DNA of 64,000 bases. Source: Desulfovibrio ferrophilus (GTDB taxonomy: Bacteria; Desulfobacterota; Desulfovibrionia; Desulfovibrionales; Desulfovibrionaceae). Within the stretch, counting starts at the first letter, position 1; each line of letters starts with the position of its first letter. The notes beneath the pieces are model-generated. The model searched no databases. It saw nothing but the letters and a program-made list of their open reading frames with translations, and was not told the origin of the DNA. The stretch covers positions 3,120,905 through 3,184,904 of the forward strand of contig NZ_AP017378.1 in the NCBI RefSeq assembly GCF_003966735.1. Reading direction: 5' to 3'. The position numbers and the translations under genes were made by a program. This document shows positions 24,019-36,678 of this stretch, piece by piece.

Positions 24019-24096
24019 TGGCGTCCCCAGGGGGATTTGAACCCCCGTCGCTAGCGTGAAAGGCTAGTGTCCTGGGCCAGGCTAGACGATGGGGAC
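24019..24096 (-). tRNA. tRNA-Glu (anticodon TTC), copy 1
   Basis: On the minus strand the acceptor GTCCCCA pairs with TGGGGAC, CCA is encoded, the anticodon loop is CTTTCAC and the T-loop is GTTCAAATC. The sequence is identical to the copy at 24577-24654. It keeps its own promoter (24158-24186) and terminator, so it is probably expressed even though the neighbouring tRNA-Gln has decayed. Confidence 0.95.
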
Positions 24097-24576: not shown

Positions 24577-24654
24577 TGGCGTCCCCAGGGGGATTTGAAC
24601 CCCCGTCGCTAGCGTGAAAGGCTAGTGTCCTGGGCCAGGCTAGACGATGGGGAC
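24577..24654 (-). tRNA. tRNA-Glu (anticodon TTC), copy 2
   Basis: Identical in all 78 bases to copy 1, including encoded CCA. It follows tRNA-Gln by 8 nt and shares its promoter at 24750-24778, so the two are cotranscribed. Confidence 0.96.
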
Positions 24655-24662
24655 GCTCTGAG

Positions 24663-24737
24663 TGGCTGGCGGACAAGGACTCGAACCTTGACTACTGGAA
24701 CCAGAACCCAGCGTCCTGCCAATTAGACGATCCGCCA
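24663..24737 (-). tRNA. tRNA-Gln (anticodon CTG)
   Basis: On the minus strand the acceptor TGGCGGA pairs with TCCGCCA, CCA is encoded, the anticodon arm is CTGGG-TTCTGGT-TCCAG (anticodon CTG) and the T-loop is GTTCGAGTC. It is the first gene of the intact cassette. The matching position in the other copy is deleted. Confidence 0.95.
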
Positions 24738-25774: not shown

Positions 25775-25798
25775 TATATAAAGATATCTCAATATATG
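25775..25798. promoter_or_regulatory. Palindromic operator candidate upstream of sahR-ahcY
   Basis: An AT-rich region centred on the perfect palindrome AGATATCT (25782-25789), flanked by TATATAA and CAATATAT, lies about 20 nt before the regulator start. ArsR-type regulators bind AT-rich palindromes near their own promoter, so autoregulation is likely. The exact site limits are inferred. Confidence 0.5.
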
Positions 25799-25809: not shown

Positions 25810-26754
25810 ATGAGCGAAGCAACAATACTCCATTTTTCCAAGGCGCTGGCTGATGCCACACGCTTGCGACTGGCCCGGATTCTCATGGATCATGAGCTGT
25901 CTGTGGGTGAGATTGTCGCGGTGCTCGGCTTGTCGCAGCCTCGTATATCGCGGCATCTGAAGATCATGGCCGAGGCTGGATTGCTCGTGTCTCGTCGCGA
26001 TGGACAATGGGTTTTTTACGGTGCTGCCGAGTCGGGCGAGGGGCGCGATTATCTGGATGCCGTGGGGCCGTTCCTGAGCCGCGATGACGACTTGGGCAGG
26101 GATGCCGAAACTGCCTCCAGGGTGGTGGCCGAACGACGCAGCCATTCCAGGCATTTTTTTGAGCGCCATGCCCGGGAATGGGATCGCCTGCGCGACAGTA
26201 CTCTGGGTGGATTTGATGTGGCAGCCGAAATTTTGGCGCGCATGCCCGAGACTTCGGTGGCGGCGGATTTGGGCTGTGGCACCGGCGGGCTTGCCAAGGT
26301 CCTGCGCGAACGTGCCTCCCGGGTGATCGGAGTGGACAACTCGCAGGAGATGCTGGCCCGGGCCCGTGAGGTTCTGTCCGCCAGCGGTGAGAGTGCTGAC
26401 AGCGTCAGTCTGCGCATCGGTGATCTGGAGCATCTGCCTCTGGCCGATGCCGAAGCCGGATTCGCAGTGATGTGTCTGGCTTTGCACCATTTACCTTCCC
26501 CGGAGCGCGGCATACAGGAGGCCCTCAGGGTTCTGACGCCGGGCTCAAGATTTGTGCTCGTTGATTTCGAGCAGCACACGGATGAATCCCTGCGCGAGAG
26601 TGCAGGAGACCATTGGCTGGGTTTTGCACCCGAACGCATTGAGGGATGGCTCTCAAGCGCCGGGTTCGCTATAGTTGAAAATACCCGCTTCCCTTTGCCG
26701 TCCGGTCTTACCCTGCGGCTTTACGAGGCGGAAAAACAGATCACGGAGGAATAA
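25810..26754 (+). CDS. sahR: ArsR-type regulator fused to a SAM methyltransferase domain (SahR-like)
   Basis: The protein has 314 residues. Positions 1-95 form an ArsR winged helix (LSVGEIVAVLGLSQPRISRH). Positions 150-300 form a class I methyltransferase fold with motif I in AADLGCGTGGLAKVL and ALHHLPSPE. In Proteobacteria, SahR regulators of this design sense S-adenosylhomocysteine and control its recycling. The gene sits 3 nt before ahcY, which fits that role directly. The fused domain probably serves as ligand sensor rather than enzyme. The name rests on architecture and position. Confidence 0.85.
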   Translation: MSEATILHFSKALADATRLRLARILMDHELSVGEIVAVLGLSQPRISRHLKIMAEAGLLVSRRDGQWVFYGAAESGEGRDYLDAVGPFLSRDDDLGRDAETASRVVAERRSHSRHFFERHAREWDRLRDSTLGGFDVAAEILARMPETSVAADLGCGTGGLAKVLRERASRVIGVDNSQEMLARAREVLSASGESADSVSLRIGDLEHLPLADAEAGFAVMCLALHHLPSPERGIQEALRVLTPGSRFVLVDFEQHTDESLRESAGDHWLGFAPERIEGWLSSAGFAIVENTRFPLPSGLTLRLYEAEKQITEE

Positions 26755-26757
26755 CCA

Positions 26758-28185
26758 ATGTCCAACGTCACTCCCCTGGACCTGTCCCTGGACTACAAGG
26801 TCGCGGATATGTCCCAGGCCGATTTCGGTCGCAAGGAAATGCAGCTGTCCGAGCGCGAGATGCCCGGCCTGATGGCAATCATTGAAAAATACGGCAAGGA
26901 CAAACCCCTGGCCGGATTGAAAGTCACCGGTTCTCTGCATATGACCATTCAGACGGCCATGCTCATCAAGACCCTGCACGCTCTGGGTGCTGATCTTCGT
27001 TGGGCTTCCTGCAACATTTTCTCCACTCAGGATCACGCTGCCGCGGCCATTGCCGCTGATGGTCTGGCCAAGGTTTTTGCCTGGAAGGGCGAGACACTGG
27101 AAGACTACTGGTGGTGCACCGAGATGGCTCTGACCTGGCCCGATGGCTCCGGCCCGGACCTGATTGTGGACGACGGCGGCGATGCCACTCTGCTGATTCA
27201 CCAGGGCGTGAAGGTCGAAGCCGACCCTACCCTGTGTGACAAGACCTATGATGTGCACGAGTTCCAGCTGATCATGGATCGCCTGGCTGCCTCGGTGAAG
27301 GATACCCCGCAGAAGTGGACCAAGATCGCTGATGTCTGCCGTGGCGTTTCCGAAGAAACCACCACCGGTGTGCATCGTCTGTATCAGATGCAGGAGCAGG
27401 GCGAACTGCTGTTCCCGGCCATCAACGTCAACGATTCGGTCACCAAGTCCAAGTTCGACAACCTGTATGGTTGCCGCGAGTCCTTGGCCGACGGCATCAA
27501 GCGCGCTACGGATGTCATGATTGCTGGCAAGGTTGCGGTTGTTGTGGGCTACGGCGACGTGGGCAAGGGCTGCGCCCAGTCCATGCGTGGATTCGGCGCT
27601 CGCGTGCTGGTGACCGAGGTTGATCCCATCTGCGCCTTGCAGGCCGCCATGGAAGGCTATGAAGTGACCACCATGGAAGAAGCTCTCAAGGAAGGCGACC
27701 TCTACATCACCTGCACCGGCAACTATCATGTCATTACCGGTGCGCACATGGAGAAGATGAAAGACGAGGCCATTCTCTGCAATATCGGTCACTTCGACTC
27801 CGAGATTGAGATGGACTATCTGGAGAAGAATCCCAAGTGCACCAAGCTGGAGATCAAGCCTCAGGTGGACAAATGGACTCTGGAGTCCGGCAATTCCCTC
27901 ATCGTGCTGGCCGAAGGCCGTCTGGTGAACCTGGGTTGCGCCACCGGTCACCCCTCGTTCGTGATGTCCAACAGCTTCACCAACCAGGCCCTGGCACAGA
28001 TTGATCTGGCCAAGAACACCTACGAGCCCTGTGTCATGACCCTGCCCAAGTCTTTGGACGAAGAGGTTGCGCGTCTGCACCTGGAGCGCATTGGCGTCAA
28101 GCTGGAGACCCTGACCAAGGAACAGGCCGATTACATCGGTGTGGCGGTTGAGGGGCCCTATAAGCCCGATCATTACCGTTATTAG
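26758..28185 (+). CDS. ahcY: S-adenosylhomocysteinase
   Basis: 475 residues with all family landmarks: the NAD-binding [20 protein letters not shown] near residue 265, the substrate region [10 protein letters not shown] near 92, [13 protein letters not shown] and the closing KPDHYRY. It splits S-adenosylhomocysteine to adenosine and homocysteine, relieving product inhibition of methyltransferases. GGAGG precedes ATG 26758. It is cotranscribed with sahR. A GC-rich imperfect hairpin at about 28243-28277 without a T run may end the transcript. Confidence 0.97.
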
Positions 28186-33692: not shown

Positions 33693-34859
33693 TTAGCAGG
33701 CACCCTTGAGAGCTTCCACCATGTCGGTGGCTTCCCAGGTGAACTCGGGCAGCTCCCGGCCGAAGTGGCCGTAGCAGGAGGACGCCTTGTAGATGGGGCG
33801 CCTGAGGTTCAGCTTCTGTTCGATGAAGTAGGGACGCAGGTCAAAGACACTCGTCACGGCCTTGGTCAGGACATCGTCGGGGATGTCGCTGGTGCCCTGG
33901 CTGGTGACCAGCACGGACACGGGCTCGGCCACGCCGATGACGTAGGCGATCTGCACCTGGCAGGTAGGAGCCAGGCCAGCGGCAACAACGTTCTTGGCGA
34001 TGTAGCGGCCCATGTAGGCACCGGAGCGGTCGACTTTGGAAGGGTCCTTGCCGGAGAACGCGCCTCCACCGTGGGCGCCCATGCCGCCGTAGGTGTCCTG
34101 AATGATCTTGCGTCCGGTCAGACCGCAGTCACCCATGGGGCCGCCGATGACGAAACGACCGGTGGTGTTGATGTAGATGCGGGTCTTCTTTTCATCCACG
34201 AACTCACCGGGCAGGGTGGCGAAGATGACTTCCTTCTTGATGCCTTCGACCAGCTCGTCCTGAGCGACTTCCGGAGCATGCTGAGAAGCGATGACCACGG
34301 TGTCGATGAACTTGGGTTTGCCGTCTTCGTAGGTGAAGCTGACTTCGGTCTTTCCATCGGGGCGCAGGTAATCGAGGATGCCTTCCTTGCGCACTGCGGT
34401 CAGGCGCTCGGACAGCTTGTGGGCCCAGTAGATGGGAGCGGGCATCAGGGTTTCGGTCTCGTTGCAGGCGTATCCGAACATCATGCCCTGGTCACCGGCG
34501 CCCTGTTCTTCGGGGGCCTTGCGGTCAACGCCCTGGGCGATGTCCGGGGACTGCTTGTCGATGGTGGACATCACGGCGCAGGTCTCGGCATCGAAACCCA
34601 TGTCGGAGCTGGTGTAGCCGATCTCGCGAATGGTATCGCGCACGATCTGTGGCAGATCGGCGTAACCCTTGGTGGTGATTTCACCGGCGATCATTGCCAG
34701 ACCGGTGGTGACCAGGGTTTCGCAAGCCACGCGGGATTCGGGGTCCTGCTCCAGCAGGGCGTCCAGCACGGCGTCAGAGATCTGGTCGGCGACTTTATCG
34801 GGATGGCCCTCGGTCACGGATTCGGAAGTAAAGTGATACGTGCCTTTGTTGCTGATCAT
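33693..34859 (-). CDS. metK: S-adenosylmethionine synthetase
   Basis: 388 residues with family signatures: [20 protein letters not shown] at the N-terminus (ATP and Mg binding), [16 protein letters not shown] near residue 115 and [16 protein letters not shown] near 265. It makes SAM from methionine and ATP. Its start overlaps the DUF502 stop by four bases, and panC lies upstream in the same unit. The operon is headed by a SAM-I riboswitch and terminator, which would give end-product control. Confidence 0.97.
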
Positions 34860-35518
34860 TCTGATCCTCCAGAGCGTTTGACCTCGTCCGGATTGATGAT
34901 CCCACCCGAAATGAGAATCTTGAAGGAGTCTTCCACGCTGATGTCCAGGGTGATGACGTCTTCTTCGGGCACCAGAAGGTAGAAGCCCGAGGTCGGGTTG
35001 GGAGTCGTCGGCAGGAAGAGGTTGATGACGGGTTTGTCTGTCTTGTTCTGAAATTCGGGGTATGTCTTGCCGGTGACATACGCCAGGGCGTAGATGCCCT
35101 TGCGCGGATACTCGATGAGAACCACTCGCTTGAAATCCTTACCGCCGCCGATGAAGATGGTCTCCACCAGTTGCTTCACCGCCTGGTAGAACTTGTTCAC
35201 CAGGGGGATGTTGTTCATGATGCGTTCACCCAGACGGACCAGGGTCCTGCCCAGGATGTTGCGGGCCAGAAAGCCGATCAGGAACAGGGCCATGACCAGC
35301 AGGATGATCCCCAGCCCCGGAATATTGAAGGGCAGGTAGTTTTCGGGCCGGAAAGGTTCGGGGATGAGCAGCAGGATCTTGTCCGCCCACCTGAAGATCA
35401 CCCCTAGGAAAAAGGCAGTGGCCGCCAGAGGGATGACCACGAGCAGTCCCGCAATGAGGTTGGTCTTCAGGGCGCCTTTGAGGAGCCCCAGGAGGCCTGT
35501 CCGCTGCTTGCTGCACAT
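34856..35518 (-). CDS. DUF502-family membrane protein
   Basis: 220 residues with two strong membrane helices near residues 20-45 and 65-85 and a soluble C-terminal part. [20 protein letters not shown], then [19 protein letters not shown] and [21 protein letters not shown] match DUF502 proteins. Function is unknown; plant members of the family relate to membrane traffic. It sits 5 nt after panC and overlaps metK, so it is expressed with SAM and pantothenate genes for no obvious reason. Confidence 0.88.
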
Positions 35519-35523
35519 AAATT

Positions 35524-36378
35524 CTACTCGCCGCCTAACAGGAGCAGGTTGTCGATGAGCCGGGCCTTGCCCAGGCGCACGGCGACTGCCGCCAGGGTGG
35601 GACCGGTCAGAGTCTGCACCGGCTGAATATTCTCGGGGTCCACCAGTTCCAGATAGTCGATGTCCCCACCGGGCACGTGCTTGGCATAGAATGCCTGCAG
35701 GGCCTGCTTCAGGGCCTCGGCGTCGTGCTCGCCGCTTTCGGCCAGGGTCGCGATATGCTGGAGGCCGCGCTGCAGGCCTGGAGCCAGGGCGCGTTCGGCT
35801 GCGGTCAGGTAGACATTGCGCGAGCTCATGGCCAATCCGTCGGCCTCACGCACGATGGGGCTGCCCATGATCGTGGTGGGGATGTGCAGGTCGCGCACCA
35901 TGCGCCGGATGATGGCCAGCTGCTGCCAGTCTTTTTGTCCGAATACGGCCAGGGTCGGCTGGGCCAGATTGAGCAGGATGGTGACGATGGTGGCCACGCC
36001 GCGGAAGTGTACGGGGCGGCTGGCACCGCACAGATGTTTGCCCAGCTCGGGGATTTCTACCCAGGTGGCGTGGTCCGGGGCATAGACGTCTTCACGCGTG
36101 GGTGTGAAGAGCAGGTCCACTCCGGCCTCTTCGGCCAGGCGCGCATCGCGTTCCAGGTCCGCCGGGTAGGCGTCCAGGTCTTCGCTCGGTCCGAACTGCG
36201 TGGGGTTCACGAACAGGCTGACATACACCCGGTCCGCATGTTCACGGGCCCAGCGCATGAGAGACAGATGTCCCTCATGAAAGAAACCCATGGTGGGCAC
36301 CAGCGCTGTGGTCAGTCCCGCTGCGCGGTCTGCCATGGCTTGTGCCTGAAAAGATTGTGCATCGCTTAAGCGCTTCAT
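35524..36378 (-). CDS. panC: Pantothenate synthetase
   Basis: 284 residues with the nucleotidyltransferase signature PTMGFFHEGHLSLMRWA near residue 30, FVNPTQFGPSEDLDAYP near 60, FGQKDWQQLAIIRRMVRDL near 150 and SSRNVYLT near 185. It joins pantoate and beta-alanine with ATP in coenzyme A synthesis. It is the first gene after the riboswitch-terminator on this strand. Confidence 0.96.
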   Translation of the reverse strand: MKRLSDAQSFQAQAMADRAAGLTTALVPTMGFFHEGHLSLMRWAREHADRVYVSLFVNPTQFGPSEDLDAYPADLERDARLAEEAGVDLLFTPTREDVYAPDHATWVEIPELGKHLCGASRPVHFRGVATIVTILLNLAQPTLAVFGQKDWQQLAIIRRMVRDLHIPTTIMGSPIVREADGLAMSSRNVYLTAAERALAPGLQRGLQHIATLAESGEHDAEALKQALQAFYAKHVPGGDIDYLELVDPENIQPVQTLTGPTLAAVAVRLGKARLIDNLLLLGGE

Positions 36379-36453: not shown

Positions 36454-36481
36454 AAAAAACCCCTCCTGTGGGGGAGGGGTT
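36454..36481 (-). terminator. Intrinsic terminator, expression platform of the SAM riboswitch
   Basis: AACCCCTCC (36458-36466) and GGAGGGGTT (36473-36481) form a 9-bp stem with a 6-nt loop. On the minus strand the stem is followed by six T. It lies 20 nt after the aptamer and 75 nt before panC, where it would stop transcription when SAM is bound. Confidence 0.85.
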
Positions 36482-36501
36482 CACGAGTGTTTCGTTTATC
36501 C

Positions 36502-36600
36502 ATCATGGTCCCTCACGGGCTGGCGGTAGCACCTTGACCTCAATGGGATCAGGTTGCCGGGCGGTCAGCGGGCCAGTACCCTCGCGCCTCTCTTCATGAT
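36502..36600 (-). promoter_or_regulatory. SAM-I (S-box) riboswitch aptamer
   Basis: Read on the minus strand, this segment shows the conserved SAM-I blocks in order: AAGAGAGGCGCGAGGG, ACTGGCCC, TGACCGCCCGGCAACC, then AGGTGCTACCGCCAGCC. Stem P1 closes through ATCATG (minus strand from 36600) and CATGAT (to 36502). The aptamer of about 99 nt has normal length. SAM-I binds S-adenosylmethionine and favours the terminator. The downstream genes are panC, DUF502 and metK, so feedback control of SAM synthesis is the likely purpose. The P2 strand carries one or two extra bases compared with the common consensus. Confidence 0.88.
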
Positions 36601-36678
36601 TGTTCAAATCGCCACCAGCATGGCTGCGGCTGGCAACACCGTTACCTCAAACCGTTTCGGTCAGCAAGAGTTTTTTGT

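Follow-up and report, generated by a model that had tools for sequence, protein, structure and literature searches.

Does a SAM-sensing riboswitch control panC and metK in Desulfovibrio ferrophilus, and how does it relate to the SahR-type regulator encoded nearby? The 64,000 nt stretch of contig NZ_AP017378.1 analysed here (the window) carries both, and the same panC-metK operon was followed in a sample of panC loci from the order Desulfovibrionales.

The panC-DUF502-metK operon and its SAM-I aptamer

Three genes lie head to tail on the minus strand. The first, panC (pantoate--beta-alanine ligase, 284 aa, 35524..36378), matches TIGR00018 (297.7 bits vs 212.75) and PF02569. A 220 aa DUF502 protein (34856..35518; PF04367, 120.4 bits; no NCBIfam family) follows after a gap of 5 nt, and its gene overlaps by 4 nt with metK (methionine adenosyltransferase, 388 aa, 33693..34859; TIGR01034, 578.3 bits vs 309.4). 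Family models and spacing thus bear out the preliminary description, which placed panC first in an operon with DUF502 and metK.

A cmscan search of the whole window placed the Rfam model of the SAM riboswitch or S-box leader, RF00162, on the minus strand at 36602..36500, covering model positions 1-108 of 108 with 59.1 bits against the Rfam gathering score of 44.4 (E 3.8e-11), and this is the only SAM-I match in the window's genome. S-box blocks had been read from the letters on this strand, and AAGAGAGG, ACTGGCCC, CCCGGCAACC and AGGTGCTA are indeed present in the order quoted; the covariance search proposed as a check gave a match above cut-off over the whole model, and the range first assigned to the element, 36454-36600, spans the aptamer plus the terminator described below to within 2 bases.

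The assignment of stems P1-P4 to 36500..36602 rests on the RF00162 match and on pairing across all 49 SAM-I copies detected in Desulfovibrionales, which were aligned and scored against a control in which the partner was slid by 1-3 positions. The window's Rfam pairs were standard in 1274 of 1416 cells (90%), compared with 30-42% for slid partners, and compensatory changes were seen in P2 and P3. The outer pairs of P1 were poorly kept (1-103 in 28/49 copies, 2-102 in 7/49, 3-101 in 33/49). The pseudoknot between the P2 loop and J3/4 was standard in 144/196 cells versus 42-78 of 194-196 when slid; its outer pair was standard in just 20/49 copies, and in the window all four of four pairs are standard. 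The pocket blocks GCAACC and AGGUGC occur in 49/49 copies, and the longer GGCAACC in 45/49. The SAM-I structural signal in the window leader is well beyond chance, and by sequence the element is a canonical member of the SAM-I class on a known type of target, predicted to bind SAM.

One departure from the common pattern is in J3/4, which reads AGGUGCUAC in the window and in its relative G074 compared with AGGUGC(C/U)AA in 41/49 copies. A changed ligand, such that the aptamer no longer reports SAM, would have a precedent in the spermidine-binding SAM-I variants, but according to the available part of PMC10853860 the changes in those variants fall in J1/2 and in the internal loop of P3, whereas the window has the common blocks. 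The operon also ends in metK, and AGGUGCUAC recurs in four SAM-I metX leaders; it was on the g5 metX leaders that a ligand change was rejected, and we consider it extremely improbable.

Distribution of SAM-I elements in Desulfovibrionales

SAM-I elements above the cut-off were found at 49 loci in 44 of the 297 genomes of the order, representing 9 of 55 genera; the other 253 gave no match under the stricter filters that apply to searches over more than 40 genomes, by which weak copies may be lost. A search at family level found them in 44/288 genomes and added G301 (genus g9) relative to the order search. Sorted by downstream gene, 34 of the 49 loci precede a small orphan gene, four precede metX and five precede panC-(DUF502)-metK, while the remaining six (three in g18, two in g8, one in g51) are not assigned to a downstream gene. 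The five panC-metK cases belong to the window's genome and G074, the only two genomes of genus g1, to G106 (g15), and to G213 and G217 (both g31); in G106, no DUF502 match was found between panC and metK. Aptamer and terminator are kept across these five genomes and three genera, and the spacer between them varies.

The orphan gene found at most SAM-I loci starts 131-328 nt after the aptamer in 34/49 cases (g13, g5, g9) and encodes a conserved protein of 88-90 aa with 21 invariant columns in 15 rows (e.g., L065:2367-2636, G175). It is present in 36/288 genomes of the family, as 35 strong matches and one weak partial match (G277, E 4e-4); 34 of the strong ones were seen directly behind a SAM-I element, and the G301 gene lies behind one by coordinates. 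No Pfam match better than E 0.1 was obtained for three of these proteins, and none in NCBIfam or PHROGs for two. The predicted structure (mean pLDDT 79.6) matched no PDB fold at E<=0.001, and sequence searches gave only weak matches. A search of the window's genome found no copy. In Oleidesulfovibrio alaskensis G20 the SAM riboswitch is followed by a gene called hypothetical, which may be a copy of this orphan gene.

G148 (g8) has a pair of SAM-I loci, L054 and L055, whose aptamers are identical. They lie on two contigs, each no more than about 600 bases from a contig end, and represent either one place split or repeated in the assembly, or a duplicate.

Terminator, leader folding and proposed mechanism

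The intrinsic terminator noted behind the aptamer was confirmed at 36482-36454 on the minus strand, with a stem at 36482-36457 and a T run to 36454, and the panC start (36378) is downstream of it. In all five panC-metK SAM-I leaders a hairpin rich in GC, with a T run, lies 16-18 nt 3' of the aptamer. Across the order, 45 of the 49 SAM-I loci have a hairpin and T run at a distance of 6-30 nt, and the remaining four, in which no terminator was detected, are the metX leaders. Terminators so regularly close to the aptamer support transcriptional attenuation.

Very probably, then, a canonical SAM-I riboswitch serves as a transcriptional off-switch for panC-DUF502-metK in one lineage (g1, g15, g31). 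Bound SAM would stabilise P1-P4, allowing the downstream hairpin to form, and transcription would end in vivo at the T run ahead of panC. With little SAM, strands of the aptamer would pair with the 5' arm of the terminator, and RNA polymerase would read through into panC, DUF502 and metK.

The exclusion of one state by the other is the weak step of this mechanism. The minimum free energy fold of the window leader (-54.9 kcal/mol, z -1.58 vs shuffles) does not contain the aptamer. If the terminator 3' arm is kept from pairing, the leader folds best (-36.7 kcal/mol) with the 5' arm paired to aptamer positions 15-24 in the P2/P3 strands; enforcing the aptamer gave -25.6 kcal/mol, so that the alternative is 11 kcal/mol lower in a model that contains neither pseudoknot, tertiary contacts nor SAM. 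This pairing of arm and aptamer was matched by 33/300 arm shuffles and 110/300 aptamer shuffles, and in a second run by 40/100 shuffles, and hence is not above controls. Among the 45 terminator-bearing leaders, those of g5 (n=10, mean z 1.85) and g8 (n=2, 1.89) stand out, and those of g15 (0.0) and g18 (-0.59) do not. In g5 leaders the 5' arm pairs with the 3' strand of P1, and among the five panC-metK leaders its aptamer partners vary. The folding proposed as a check on terminator/antiterminator exclusion thus turned up an alternative fold but does not show exclusion for the window leader, the pairing being within the range of shuffled sequences. No specific antiterminator is proposed.

Ahead of the leader, a block, TTGCTGACCGAAACGGTTTGAGGTAACG (36640..36667, minus strand), contains the inverted repeat ACCG-AAA-CGGT, is shared with G074 (there ACCG-ATT-CGGT) and is single-copy in the window's genome at up to 3 mismatches. 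It is a putative promoter or operator region. A consensus scan found no sigma-70-like promoter ahead of the leader, the TTGCTGACCGAAACGGTTTGAGGTAACG block included. An open frame without family match ends on the same strand 76 nt before the aptamer, and no terminator-like site was found between the two. The lack of a promoter match and the open frame would suit a switch of weak effect, with panC-metK transcribed mainly from elsewhere, for example an internal promoter. Transcripts from upstream would still have to cross the terminator, however, and five genomes in three genera have retained both aptamer and terminator despite changes in the spacer, so that a weak effect appears very improbable beside control of the operon by the riboswitch.

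The SahR-type regulator and its putative binding sites

The SahR-type regulator gene that had been noted in the vicinity was recovered on the plus strand at 25810-26754, 10.8 kb from the aptamer. It encodes 314 aa with an ArsR HTH and a methyltransferase domain, has homologues (E<=1e-20) in 250/297 genomes of the order, and is directly upstream of ahcY (adenosylhomocysteinase, 26758-28185, plus strand; TIGR00936, 619.9 bits). A SahR-type box, ATATAAAGATATCTCAATAT (25776..25795, plus strand; palindrome 16/20), precedes the sahR-like gene, from whose start codon it is separated by 14 nt. It is the genome's sole match to ATATNNAGATATCTNNATAT without mismatch; nine further sites occur at 2-3 mismatches, against five for a reversed-pattern control, and no methionine-like gene was seen at the five of these nine that were placed by open frames, without a family search. 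The window also carries a pair of minus-strand tRNA genes (24022-24096 and 24580-24654) whose matched sequences are identical and which lie 558 bases apart, and another tRNA at 24666-24737.

SahR-type boxes were scored in a sample of 55 panC loci, the window's own and 54 that were fetched, picked to spread over genera of the order. In 44 of them the sequence retrieved has metK downstream of panC, a count limited in some cases by contig ends. Since the arrangement is common without SAM-I, panC at the head of a metK operon is not special to the riboswitch. The preliminary description had argued that SAM would also limit pantothenate synthesis here; such an effect may follow from the predicted termination ahead of panC, but the point is weaker than stated, as panC-metK occurs in many genomes without the riboswitch. 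The riboswitch is not the origin of the link between pantothenate and SAM genes.

A box scoring at least 15/20 is present upstream of panC in 16/55 loci, 15 of which have panC-metK. Twelve have it at -18, over the panC start (three loci each in g3 and g5, one each in g9, g14, g23, g25, g26 and g38), with scores of 15-17/20. In three g7 loci it lies 81 to 85 before panC, and the sixteenth (g47) has it at -248 with no metK adjoining panC. Shuffled upstream regions reached a maximum of 14 (0/275 at 15 or more), and with a second consensus 1/275 reached 15. The box consensus agrees with boxes before several sahR genes, a clear box not being present in all 30 sahR upstream regions, and with the published 20-bp palindrome, ATC-10-GAT (PMC4239095, in part). 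Another 24 panC-metK loci have neither a SahR-type box nor, by Rfam scans, SAM-I upstream of panC. Apart from four tRNAs, the scans of the 54 fetched loci returned nothing but SAM in the four relatives whose elements had been found before.

The five genomes with a SAM-I panC-metK operon all have a sahR homologue, the G217 match spanning one stop codon. For each of the five, the 200 nt before the aptamer were scored with a matrix built on 19 boxes, and the best site was compared with 1000 shuffles. No SahR-type box was found ahead of the aptamer in the window (934/1000 shuffles as good), G074 (314/1000), G106 (511/1000) or G213 (172/1000), and the best consensus score in the 500 nt before the window's panC was 11/20. 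In G217 (L070), a SahR-like box, ATATTGAGTTTGCCTCATAT, lies 37 to 18 nt before the aptamer and was equalled by 0/1000 shuffles; it overlaps a good sigma-70-like promoter, TTGTCA-17-TATATT, as read by eye. In that genome panC-DUF502-metK may be under both SAH and SAM control. Extending this arrangement to the window, with SahR repressing the promoter and the SAM-I leader attenuating the same transcript, is very improbable: such a box is missing from the window, G074, G106 and G213, and even that of G217 scores 12.3, under the weakest training box (17.2). In the window, predicted SahR binding most likely concerns sahR-ahcY only. The earlier idea that two sensors act on neighbouring genes fits the window in this form, but in another clade the box is over the panC start itself, where the window has none.

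Phylogeny of the operon and a possible exchange of control

The five SAM-I operons form one clade in the metK tree (91/94), and eleven boxed rows (g5, g9, g25, g26, g14, g38, g3) form another (81/77); these two, g23 and a group of g37, g12 and g36 meet in an open fork. In the combined panC and metK tree, the SAM-I clade (100/99) is joined to g37, g12 and g36 (93/88), and all twelve rows with the -18 box, the box being present in 12/12, group together as a clade (93/91). In this tree g23 sits on a long branch, and the root is placed only by midpoint. The nearest relatives g37, g12 and g36 have neither SAM-I nor a SahR-type box. A sister relationship of boxed and SAM-I rows was rejected because the combined tree places g37, g12 and g36 in that position.

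The sensor that acts on this operon thus seems to differ between lineages, being SAM-I in one and, in another, a SahR-type box that would serve as an operator over the panC start. With g37, g12 and g36 beside the SAM-I clade and the boxed rows elsewhere, one gain of SAM-I plus one gain of the -18 box would be as simple as a swap. Control of metK by SahR may be the older state, as the wide core regulon in the available part of PMC4239095 and the case of G217 suggest. It is possible, though on the whole unlikely, that a SAH-sensing repressor once controlled panC-metK in one lineage and gave way to a SAM-sensing riboswitch, with G217 retaining both. The product SAM, in place of the inhibitory by-product SAH, would then govern SAM synthesis, and G217 would be an intermediate in which the exchange can be studied. 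An unchanged operon that appears to be under an RNA sensor of SAM in one lineage and a DNA-binding sensor of SAH in another offers a small, testable case of regulator exchange or recruitment in an essential pathway.

Comparison with known systems

No paper with SAM-I on panC-metK was found among the open-access articles searched. PMC3766115 is a survey of RNA motifs in 10 Desulfovibrionales, and its additional files may already list such sites. The available portions of PMC12121620, PMC2864571, PMC5343134 and PMC8877191 hold nothing further on a panC-DUF502-metK operon. SahR control of metK and panC is already known: in the part of PMC4239095 available, metK, ahcY and sahR are among the SahR targets, with metK in the core regulon, panC is named as an expansion, and a 20-bp palindrome is given. 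Its table row for Desulfovibrionales lists 10 genomes and 9, the second number being read here as the SahR column, and the riboswitches covered are SAH, SAM-alpha and SAM-SAH. The genes described here, metK, ahcY, sahR and panC, are among these targets. SahR is a SAH-responsive DNA-binding protein, however, and no such box was found on the window operon.

S-boxes with a hairpin and poly(T) are reported on metIC and metX in Geobacter and Desulfuromonas (PMC545781, in part), and the table there shows none for its two Desulfovibrio species. The window element likewise combines SAM-I with a hairpin and poly(T) in a delta-proteobacterium, but the targets differ. The Desulfovibrio-type genome of O. 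alaskensis G20 also has a single SAM-I riboswitch, in that case before a gene called hypothetical (PMC11124144, available portion). SAM-I with a terminator is described on Firmicute met genes and metK (PMC4239095, in the same part). The window leader resembles these in its full-length aptamer, covarying stems and pseudoknot, adjacent terminator and metK target, and differs in that panC is the first gene and that 253/297 genomes of its order gave no SAM-I match under the stricter filters.
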